Part shown: one piece after another, positions 13,609-57,272 of the stretch
Position numbering within the stretch: position 1 is the stretch's first letter
Layout of the letters: each line of letters begins with the position of its first letter
NCBI GenBank assembly: GCA_019455285.1
Contig: JACFMS010000018.1
Span: 1-64,000 of the forward strand
From: Sphingomonadales bacterium
GTDB lineage: Bacteria; Pseudomonadota; Alphaproteobacteria; Sphingomonadales; Govanellaceae
Direction: 5' to 3'
Length of the DNA stretch: 64,000 nt
The notes under the pieces: model-generated
Seen by the model: only the letters and a program-made list of their open reading frames with translations
Told to the model about the DNA's origin: nothing
Databases searched by the model: none
Made by a program: the position numbers and the translations under genes

Positions 13609-13957
13609 GGGGTTACGCCTTTTCTCCTGTCAGAACCCGTGGCGATTACTATAGGCGCGGATCGGCCAGGCGCAAATCCCTCCGGGAGGTCGACTCGGGG
13701 GGAACTTGCCCCCTCCTTTCCGGGGCGGCTAGCCTTGGCGGCTTAACAGTGCGGGCGGGGGATGGGCAAGAAACCAGGTTATACGCGGCGTCCAGTGGTT
13801 AATTATTGCTCTTGGATCAACAGGCGGCCGCAAAGCCAGTAGACAAATTGCCCTCGAAATTTTAGTGATACCCCGGCCAGACAAACAATAAGAACGGCCA
13901 TCGCCACCCTGTGGCGGGCGATTAACGTATCAAATCAAGAACACAAGGATCAGTGCA
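13609..13957. other. Divergent intergenic region between chvI and pckA
   Basis: This 349-base stretch holds the promoters of two diverging units. No gene, RNA or convincing operator palindrome was seen. An AAGGAT sequence near 13944 serves the pckA GTG start. In rhizobia I recall pckA being controlled by ChvI, so a ChvI site here is plausible, but I could not identify one. Confidence 0.5.
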
Positions 13958-17171: not shown

Positions 17172-17272
17172 CCCCGTTCCACTGGGGTGTCCCGCCTTTT
17201 GTTGCCGGCGGGACTGAGATTACACCCACTGAACCTGATCTGGTTAGCACCAGCGAAGGGAGGCGGACGCGA
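17172..17272 (+). promoter_or_regulatory. TPP riboswitch (THI element)
   Basis: The conserved core is easy to read: GGGGTGTCCC near 17184, GGGACTGAGAT at 17210-17220, ACACCC, TGAACCTGATCTGG near 17230-17243, then GCACCAGCGAAGGGA. These are the helices and TPP-binding loops of the THI box. It lies about 95 bases upstream of a TonB receptor and tenA and should switch them off when thiamine pyrophosphate is plentiful. Confidence 0.95.
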
Positions 17273-17363
17273 TGACACGATCGACATCCCATCCAACTTC
17301 AATTCTTCCGGTGCCAATGCGGGTAAGACGCGTGGTCGATCATAAATACCGGAGTCTATAACA

Positions 17364-54998: not shown

Positions 54999-55250
54999 GG
55001 CGTATCTCCGAAAAAAGGAAGTAATTCCTTCATGTTACAGCAAATCTTTTTGCCGCCGCGTGAATTCATCAAGTCTCACGGAGTTGTGATGGCGCATTTT
55101 TTACTTGTTTTTTACCGCGTTCTCGACGATTTTCCTGGCGATTTCTCCGCGAGACGTCTCGCTGAAGGGGATGGCACGTCATTTGCTTACAATTTTATGA
55201 AAGCTTGATGCTTATTTGATTGAGTTGACGTGCTGATTAGGAGAATGACC

Positions 55251-55895
55251 GTGGCGAAACGTATCTCAGCGATCGCTGGAGCCCTCATAACCCTGACCAC
55301 TCTTGGGTCGTTAACCCCTTCATTTGCTAGCCAAATTTCAGCCAAGCCGGCGATCGAGGCCGACTCCGCCGTAAACCAGATCTCGACCACCGTCGCCGGC
55401 CTGTCGCGGCTGACGAGCTATCTGGGCGCGGTCGCCGCCGAGGTCGGAACTGTCTCAAAACGGGAAATCGCTGTCGGCCAGCAATACAGATGCCTGGCCC
55501 AGGCGGTCTACTTCGAGGCCCGGGGCGAAAGCGATGCCGGCCAGCGCGCCGTCGCCCATGTGGTGCTCAACCGCGTCAAGGATCGCCGCTATCCGCAGAC
55601 CGTGTGTGGCGTGGTGTTCCAAAACGAACACTTAAAGAACCGCTGCCAGTTTTCCTTCGCCTGCGACGGCCGTTCGGACCGGCCCCATGATATCGCCGCC
55701 TGGCGGCGCTCCCTGGAAGTGGCGTTGCAGACCCTGGCCGGGGTTGGCGAGGACGTAACCAACGCCTCGACCCATTATCATGCCCGTTATGTCGCCCCTA
55801 CCTGGGCTCCGGCCCTGGTGGAAACGGCGCGGGTCGGCCAGCACATTTTCTATCGCGAGAATGGCCGGGCAGCGGCGGTTCGCAACCCCAACTAA
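55251..55895 (+). CDS. Cell wall hydrolase, SleB-type (Hydrolase_2)
   Basis: 214 residues from GTG 55251 with AGGAG seven bases before it; ATG 55245 is too near that site and GTG 55230 is the outer limit. A signal peptide (GALITLTTLGSLTPSFA) precedes a linker and the SleB catalytic domain: LAQAVYFEARGESDAGQRAV (in parts YFEARGES), HVVLNRVKDRRYPQTVCGVVFQ, CQFSFACDG. It probably cleaves peptidoglycan in the periplasm during growth; many alphaproteobacteria carry several copies. Confidence 0.88.
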   Translation: MAKRISAIAGALITLTTLGSLTPSFASQISAKPAIEADSAVNQISTTVAGLSRLTSYLGAVAAEVGTVSKREIAVGQQYRCLAQAVYFEARGESDAGQRAVAHVVLNRVKDRRYPQTVCGVVFQNEHLKNRCQFSFACDGRSDRPHDIAAWRRSLEVALQTLAGVGEDVTNASTHYHARYVAPTWAPALVETARVGQHIFYRENGRAAAVRNPN

Positions 55896-55922: not shown

Positions 55923-55936
55923 TTGATCTAAGTCAA
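55923..55936. promoter_or_regulatory. FNR/FixK-type box (anaerobox)
   Basis: TTGATCTAAGTCAA fits the TTGAY-N4-RTCAA consensus of FNR/FixK/Dnr regulators of alphaproteobacteria. Its centre is 41.5 bases upstream of 55971, the class II activator distance from the proposed RNA start, and TAGGTT at 55959-55964 would be the -10 element. Confidence 0.7.
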
Positions 55937-55970
55937 GTCAGGCGAGGGGACGATTCGCTAGGTTTGGGGT

Positions 55971-56191
55971 GTCGCGGCAACGTGACCGGCCTGGTTGGAT
56001 GGGCTCTGCTCTGAAAATTAGCCGCAGTGTTTGATGTCGCACCGTGGGTTTCTGTCACTGGTGGGGCGAGATGGGGCTCAGTTGGGCGTACGCAAGTGCG
56101 CAAGCGACATTAACACTGAAGTTTTCTTCCTTCCCTCTTAATCTCTCTGTGCACCAATTGCCCTGCCGCTTTAGCGGCAGGGCATTTTTTT
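55971..56191 (+). ncRNA. Candidate FNR-controlled structured small RNA
   Basis: No protein gene occupies this stretch, yet it folds well. GTCGCG-GCAA-CGTGAC (55971-55986) is a GNRA-capped hairpin at the predicted 5' end. AGTGTT/AACACT (56026-56031 with 56112-56117) and ATGTCGC/GCGACAT (56034-56040 with 56104-56110) close a long-range helix. Inside it GCGTAC-GCAA-GTGCGC (56086-56101) is a second GNRA hairpin. A pyrimidine-rich unpaired tract TTTTCTTCCTTCCCTCTTAA (56121-56140) comes just before a strong terminator (56159-56191). This is how many base-pairing small RNAs look. The start is inferred from the FNR box and -10 position. It may instead be a known family I do not recognise. Confidence 0.62.
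56159..56191 (+). terminator. Strong Rho-independent terminator
   Basis: TGCCCTGCCGC, loop TTTA, GCGGCAGGGCA and seven T: an 11-base perfect stem. No gene ends near it; the closest plus-strand stop is at 55895, 264 bases upstream. This supports a separate transcript. From 56192 to 56309 I see nothing else. Confidence 0.92.
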
Positions 56192-56309
56192 CGCGCCTGG
56201 CGGGCCGTAGCCGTCATCAAGCGATCGGAAACCATTTCAGTTTTATATTACCCCCTGAAATCCGGCTGGAGTAAAATGTGTCTAGACACGGTTATAACCA
56301 ACCTATAGT

Positions 56310-56380
56310 CGTCATTCCCGCGCAAGCGGGAATCCATAGTAAAATTAAAGAGCTGGATCCCCGCTTCCGCGGGGATGACA
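56310..56380. repeat. Dispersed palindromic repeat, copy 3
   Basis: CGTCATTCCCGCGCAAGCGG to CCGCGGGGATGACA, with a central AAAATTAAAGAGCTGGATCC-like spacer. Same design as the copies at 42416, 48992 and 63948; the flanks differ from those of copies 2 and 4. Confidence 0.85.
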
Positions 56381-56441
56381 GAACATAATTTGTTTGCTTG
56401 CGATTCTATTTAAACACGTACTGGTATAGTATCGCCTCATC

Positions 56442-57272
56442 ATGTCCAATCGCAAACGCCCCCGCCCCTCGCAGCCGCCGATCAAAGCCTATACCGACGA
56501 GCTCTTTATCCACAGCCCGGCGGCGCGCCCGGTGCGCATCCTGTCCGAGTATTTCGCCCCCAAGGAGCGGTTCGAGCGCCACCGCATCCAGGACACCATC
56601 GTGTTCTTCGGCTCGGCGCGGCTGCAATCGCGGGAGACGGCGGAGGCGGCGCTGGCGCTGGCCCGCGCCGAGGGCGGGGATATCGCCGCCGCCGAGCGGC
56701 TGCTGGACATGTCGGTCTATTACGAGGCGACCCGCGAATTGGCCCGCCGGCTGACCGAATGGTCGCTATCCCTGGAGGAGACAGTGCGCCGTTTCGTGGT
56801 CTGCTCGGGCGGCGGCCCCGGCATCATGGAGGCGACCAACCGCGGCGCGGCGGAAGCCGGCGGCGAAAGCGTCGGGCTCGGCATCTCGCTGCCCATGGAG
56901 GATACCGGCAATCCCTATATATCCGGCGACTTGAGCTTCCAATTTCATTACTTTTTCATGCGTAAGTTCTGGTTCGCCTATCTTGCCAAGGCGTTTATCG
57001 CCATGCCCGGCGGCTATGGCACATTGGACGAAATCCTGGAAATCCTGACCTTGCTGCAAACCCGCAAAATGACCAAGAAGGTGCCGATCGTCTTGTTCGG
57101 CAGCAAATTCTGGGATGAGGTGCTGAATTTCCCGGCGCTGGTGCGCTATGGCACGGTCAGCCCCGGCGATCTTGACCTGTTCTTCAAGACCGACTCTTTG
57201 GACGATACCTTTGACTACATCACCGACGGCCTGATGCGCTACGCCTGGGCCAGCCCCGGCGGCGGCATGTAG
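56442..57272 (+). CDS. LOG family (TIGR00730) Rossmann-fold protein, probable cytokinin riboside phosphate phosphoribohydrolase
   Basis: 276 residues. It has FVVCSGGGPGIMEATNRGA and the LOG motif MPGGYGTLDEILEIL, with FFMRKFWFAYLAKAFIA between. LOG enzymes remove ribose 5-phosphate from nucleoside monophosphates. The protein is longer than plant LOG (about 215) by an N-terminal extension, as in many proteobacterial versions. The physiological substrate is unknown. Confidence 0.88.
   Translation: MSNRKRPRPSQPPIKAYTDELFIHSPAARPVRILSEYFAPKERFERHRIQDTIVFFGSARLQSRETAEAALALARAEGGDIAAAERLLDMSVYYEATRELARRLTEWSLSLEETVRRFVVCSGGGPGIMEATNRGAAEAGGESVGLGISLPMEDTGNPYISGDLSFQFHYFFMRKFWFAYLAKAFIAMPGGYGTLDEILEILTLLQTRKMTKKVPIVLFGSKFWDEVLNFPALVRYGTVSPGDLDLFFKTDSLDDTFDYITDGLMRYAWASPGGGM

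Follow-up and report, generated by a model that had tools for sequence, protein, structure and literature searches.

The interval between a SleB-type cell wall hydrolase gene and a LOG-type gene probably encodes an FNR-activated small RNA (sRNA) of the Hfq-dependent type that acts in trans and represses aerobic catabolism; we infer its expression, its control by oxygen, the binding of Hfq and the repression. In enterobacteria, sRNAs that respond to oxygen are well described. The interval lies in a 64,000-nt stretch of DNA, called the window throughout, and its features are listed in Table 1. A preliminary description had interpreted the region as an sRNA gene under FNR/FixK control. This interpretation was supported by the conserved geometry, linker and terminator, by a nearly frozen transcript and by the presence of genes for FNR-type regulators and for Hfq. 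The observation as a whole, namely the box, its spacing, the transcript stretch and the terminator, was confirmed as real, with the exception of the words "highly structured".

Table 1. Features of the predicted sRNA gene and its neighbours in the window.
Feature	Position	Strand	Basis
SleB-type cell wall hydrolase (Hydrolase_2), upstream neighbour; marker of the syntenic locus	55230..55895	+	
FNR/FixK-type box TTGATCTAAGTCAA, palindromic	55923..55936	+	Sequence; same place in G001, G002, G003 and G010
-10 element TAGGTT	55959..55964	+	Exactly 22 nt past the box, class II geometry
Predicted sRNA, about 221 nt, gene-free	55971..56191	+	Start predicted from the promoter geometry, end from the terminator
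Hairpin 1, six pairs, GCAA loop	55971..55986	+	Fold
Long-range helix 56025-56040/56104-56118, enclosing inner stems	56025..56118	+	Fold; not conserved in G002
Hairpin 2, six pairs, GCAA loop	56086..56101	+	Fold; comparison with the sister species
Unpaired pyrimidine linker, presumed pairing region	56121..56155	+	Fold; complementarity; TTCCTTCCCTCTnAATCTCTCTGTGCACC kept in G002
Intrinsic terminator, 11-bp stem (56159-56184) and T7	56159..56191	+	Stem kept in G002
LOG/lysine-decarboxylase family protein, downstream neighbour; marker of the syntenic locus	56442..57272	+	

Promoter, ends and fold of the predicted RNA

The FNR/FixK box noted in the preliminary description is perfect and palindromic, and the TAGGTT hexamer that had been placed at the -10 distance lies exactly 22 nt past it, a geometry that is conserved in another genus. 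As a -10 element this hexamer is weak. The class II start, calculated as the box centre + 41.5, falls at 55971, which is also the first base of hairpin 1, and the earlier statement that the two coincide was correct. An FNR-type box thus stands at an activating distance before the promoter of a stand-alone predicted RNA.

The two six-pair hairpins capped by GCAA were found as described, and so was the long-range helix, although its pairs had been counted as 13 and there are 15, with one bulged U. The pyrimidine-rich tract, which had been called open, is mostly unpaired in the computed fold (probability 0.72-0.99) and is kept in another genus, as is the terminator. In the window the 11-bp stem of the terminator is followed by seven T. 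The predicted RNA therefore combines an intrinsic terminator and U tail with an accessible pairing region. The claim that it is highly structured did not stand. When the whole transcript was compared with shuffled sequences the fold z was -2.57, a value owed to the terminator, because the body without it gave a z of -0.27, a stability no better than that of shuffled sequence. "Highly structured" is for this reason true of the drawing and not of the statistics, and the body is swapped out in the sister genus G002.

Conservation in a sister species

The same locus was found in a sister species (G001, record QEVO01000001.1) of the window's own genome (G000). A single substitution separates the two in the 221 nt of 55971-56191, while 32 of 221 third positions changed in the SleB-type gene upstream and 34 of 276 in the LOG-type gene downstream, which amounts to 12-14% of the third codon positions in the neighbouring genes. 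The spacer past the terminator changed at 52 of 230 positions (23%) and carries indels as well. Conservation is sharp from the promoter to the terminator, and the transcript is almost frozen while its flanks drift. The sole change in the transcript, T56089C, replaces a U-G pair by C-G in the second GCAA hairpin. About 50 nt beyond the terminator (56192-56245) are still 96% identical to G001, with divergence starting later; this segment may serve the LOG-type gene as a promoter element. The spacer between the terminator and that gene also holds a REP-like pair of inverted repeats (56306-56381, TCATTCCCGCGCAAGCGGGAATCC ... GGATCCCCGCTTCCGCGGGGATGA).

Candidate targets of the linker

Target sites were compared between these two close species. 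Beyond the sRNA gene itself, only one site per genome (G000 and G001) came within two mismatches of the 17-nt complement of 56122-56138. It belongs to an E1-alpha dehydrogenase gene, overlies the Shine-Dalgarno region, and is perfect in G001 and has one mismatch in G000. The gene order there is TonB receptor, Rieske-domain protein, FAD oxidoreductase, then E1-alpha, E1-beta and E2. The paaG-paaI junction was one of the weaker sites in this search; by inspection, a stretch of 21 nt complementary to 56125-56145 was seen there, over the paaI Shine-Dalgarno sequence, with one mismatch in G001 and two in G000. PaaG and PaaI scored above the NCBIfam cut-offs, and their neighbours are 3-oxoadipyl-CoA thiolase and PaaN. 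The earlier suggestion that the CU-rich tract could pair with Shine-Dalgarno sequences thereby gained support, as its two best complements in the genome overlie predicted ribosome-binding sites.

The ungapped scores were 15 (G000) and 17 (G001) for E1-alpha and 17 (G000) and 19 (G001) for paaI. When 3000 dinucleotide-shuffled linkers were run against 388 real start regions and the result was scaled to 3300 genes, a score of 15 or more was expected for 0.011 of the 3300 genes, and 17 or more was never seen. Shuffled linkers reached duplex energies as good as those of the real one in 0 and 1 of 4000 cases for paaI and, less strongly, in 34 and 7 of 4000 for E1-alpha. Judged by complementarity, the two best complements of the linker in the genome, paaI and E1-alpha, are exceptional, and they are conserved at the ribosome-binding sites in both sister species. 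They are good candidate targets and not proven ones, because on duplex energy alone other start regions in the genome are equally good and would compete. The phenylacetate (Paa) route requires oxygen, and the Rieske/FAD-oxidase operon looks oxygen-dependent from the enzymes that it encodes. Both candidates would thus belong to oxygen-dependent catabolism, which fits induction by an anaerobic activator.

Other starts were considered and set aside. That of a flavin monooxygenase gene (L185/L194) failed the shuffled-linker test (z about -0.5). The TonB receptor gene that opens the E1-alpha operon has a good energy, but its ungapped score is 11, which is expected for about 3 genes by chance, and it is not claimed as a target for this reason. 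Its start (L175, about 13800-13860, minus strand) is complementary to the linker at all but 3 of 17 nt and does not differ between the two species; the match is not significant alone and would be a second site in the operon. A search with the 9-mer GAGGGAAGG added no convincing target.

The total number of sites with at most three mismatches did not exceed that of the reversed-pattern control, and duplexes of similar energy are to be expected at other starts. Both results agree with a reading in which the sRNA is real and FNR-activated, and its linker either has other targets or serves more generally as an anti-Shine-Dalgarno or protein-binding sequence, the matches in paaI and E1-alpha having arisen by chance from purine-rich ribosome-binding sites. 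We regard this as unlikely, since the shuffled-linker null expects such scores for about 0.01 gene per genome, and the two sites are independent, are each conserved in two species and both fall in aerobic-catabolism pathways.

A possible constant promoter slot with a changing payload

In a second genus of the family (G002, record RFJA01000127.1) the gene order is the same and SleB is 61% identical. The box, TTGACCGGAATCAA, is followed after exactly 22 nt by TAGATT and then by an RNA of about 185 nt, whose body is unrelated in sequence to that of the window (no alignment) and very stable (z -4.24). The terminator stem and TTCCTTCCCTCTnAATCTCTCTGTGCACC are kept, where n is T in the window and absent in G002, and in the folds of both RNAs TTCCTTCCCTCTnAATCTCTCTGTGCACC is unpaired except for its first bases. 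In a third genus (G003) the box and the 22-nt spacing lead to CATGAT and an RNA of about 80 nt that lacks the linker. In another family (G010) the same box and spacing lead to AATAGT, and then to a 69-codon membrane-type ORF, which is preceded by a Shine-Dalgarno-like sequence, and a terminator-like hairpin. A long near-perfect palindrome (AGCTCAATATTCTTGATCGAGATCAAGGATATTGAGCT) encloses the FNR box at the G003 locus (L010, minus strand, about 1440-1285), and the short hairpin RNA and a terminator follow. The 69-codon ORF of G010 (L017, about 911-1330, downstream of SleB) has a weak COX14-like similarity (E 0.01, below the cut-off).

The 3.3-Mb genome has 30 matches to TTGAY-N4-RTCAA and 2 to the reversed control pattern. 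With 30 sites in 3.3 Mb, the box is yet in the same place, with exactly 22 nt of spacing, in five of five syntenic loci (G000, G001, G002, G003 and G010) from four genera and two families, and its placement is beyond chance. Such a box was absent from 25 other LOG-type loci and from 12 class-level SleB loci. When one genome per species was searched for the exact linker pattern, in about 85,000 species, only the G001 and G002 records matched, and a DNA search of 60 relatives found homologues only in the same two. The sequence family seems to be confined to a small group.

Every syntenic locus has a LOG-type gene downstream on the same strand, as would be the case if the RNA were a leader with a conditional terminator (attenuator) controlling that gene. 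This is very improbable: the strong 11-bp terminator is separated from the LOG-type gene by 250 nt, the intervening spacer is the one that diverges by 23% with indels, the body that would bear the antiterminator is swapped out in G002 while the terminator is kept, and no riboswitch family in Rfam matched. Slightly less probable still is a short protein gene, made up of the 35-codon frame from the ATG at 56036 to a TAA in the linker and translated from an FNR-driven mRNA. The syntenic G010 locus, where the same promoter precedes an ORF with a Shine-Dalgarno-like sequence, speaks for it. However, the only substitution in G001 would be nonsynonymous in this frame and yet preserves the RNA pair, G002 has no matching ORF and, by inspection, a one-base indel in the last codons of the frame, and no Pfam match was obtained. 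That there is no transcription unit, and that the box, the hairpins and the terminator came together by chance, is scarcely credible in view of the promoter geometry shared by four genera and of the conservation, which is sharp all the way from the promoter to the terminator, even though the body folds no more stably than shuffles and the -10 element is weak.

Tentatively, the interval between the cell wall hydrolase and LOG-type genes may be a fixed FNR-controlled promoter slot in which the payload turns over: in two genera an sRNA whose linker stays constant and whose body is exchangeable, in the third a short RNA, and in another family an ORF for a small membrane protein. In the lineage of the window, the sRNA would shut off the aerobic phenylacetate pathway and the Rieske/FAD-oxidase operon without oxygen.

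Regulators and comparison with known sRNAs

FNR-type regulators with the ETVSR recognition motif are encoded in the genomes. One of them (L060) also has the CX2CX7C cysteines, and FnrL is the NCBIfam model that it matches best, at 190.7 bits, which falls short of the equivalog cut-off (300). Crp/Fnr paralogues are many (16 HTH matches), and the exact activator is uncertain for this reason. An Hfq gene was found in five of five genomes. Three of the 30 FNR boxes lie in a cluster with genes for NosR, ApbE, cytochrome cd1 and oxidase subunit I. This cluster (G000 contig 15, 66000-78000, L174) has a cytochrome cd1 of the nitrite reductase type, which suggests denitrification in the lineage.

An Rfam covariance search had been recommended in the preliminary description; it was run, and no family reached its gathering score. 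The best of the weak scores was that of RsaE/RoxS (RF01820; 29.8 bits, gathering 79), and Spot 42 (RF00021) reached 22.2 bits (gathering 80). The alphaproteobacterial families scored 22.8 bits in L005 of G002 for ar14 (RF02344; gathering 58.8) and 14.7 bits in the window for mmgR/suhB (RF00519; gathering 41), and the ar14/mmgR test of the G003 locus L010 gave 17.2 bits, below both gathering scores (58.8 and 41). Elsewhere in the window, at 17173-17279 on the plus strand, there is a TPP riboswitch (Rfam RF00059, 61.5 bits).

FnrS is an enterobacterial sRNA that is activated by FNR and represses genes useful only with oxygen (PMC8139620). The window RNA resembles it in FNR-type activation, predicted here, in its single-stranded pairing region and intrinsic terminator, and in the predicted repression of genes for oxygen use. 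It differs in that there is no sequence or covariance-model match, it is longer (221 nt) and has a large 5′ body, and its genomic place and targets are others. By analogy, the best reading is that the window RNA would work like FnrS while being unrelated to it in sequence. In Rhodobacter sphaeroides, ChIP-seq sites of FnrL were found at the promoters of the sRNAs RSs0019 and RSs2461, which were functionally uncharacterized there (PMC4263372). These too are alphaproteobacterial sRNA promoters with an FnrL site, and the comparison of the two RNAs with the window RNA covered the Rfam matches, which are absent, and the distribution, which is narrow. RsaE/RoxS is likewise an sRNA linked to redox state, and an unpaired UCCC-type tract precedes its terminator, but it is found in Firmicutes and is controlled by ResDE (PMC8139620). 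The ar14 and mmgR/suhB RNAs share a pyrimidine-rich, anti-Shine-Dalgarno-like motif near the terminator.

Proposed mechanism and significance

According to the proposed mechanism, an FnrL/FNR-type regulator would bind the box in the class II position when oxygen falls. Transcription would then start near 55971 and end at the terminator near 56191, giving an RNA of about 220 nt. The 5′ body would be a folded module that differs between genera, and the working part would be the unpaired pyrimidine linker. Assisted by Hfq, the linker would pair over ribosome-binding sites and block the translation of mRNAs, for which paaI and E1-alpha are the best candidates. With one candidate in the aerobic phenylacetate operon and the other in the Rieske/FAD-oxidase operon, the RNA would silence oxygen-dependent catabolism at low oxygen. 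Besides the competing start regions, the many Crp/Fnr paralogues, the FnrL match below its cut-off and the comparison of targets in two close species, it weighs against this explanation that G003 keeps the promoter and not the linker, and that E1-alpha scores 15 in one of the two species. If the explanation is true, the conserved promoter, the defined pairing region and the named targets would tie an FNR switch to a post-transcriptional shutdown of aerobic catabolism. The constant promoter with its changing payload would make the locus a case for the study of how sRNAs originate and are replaced in bacteria.
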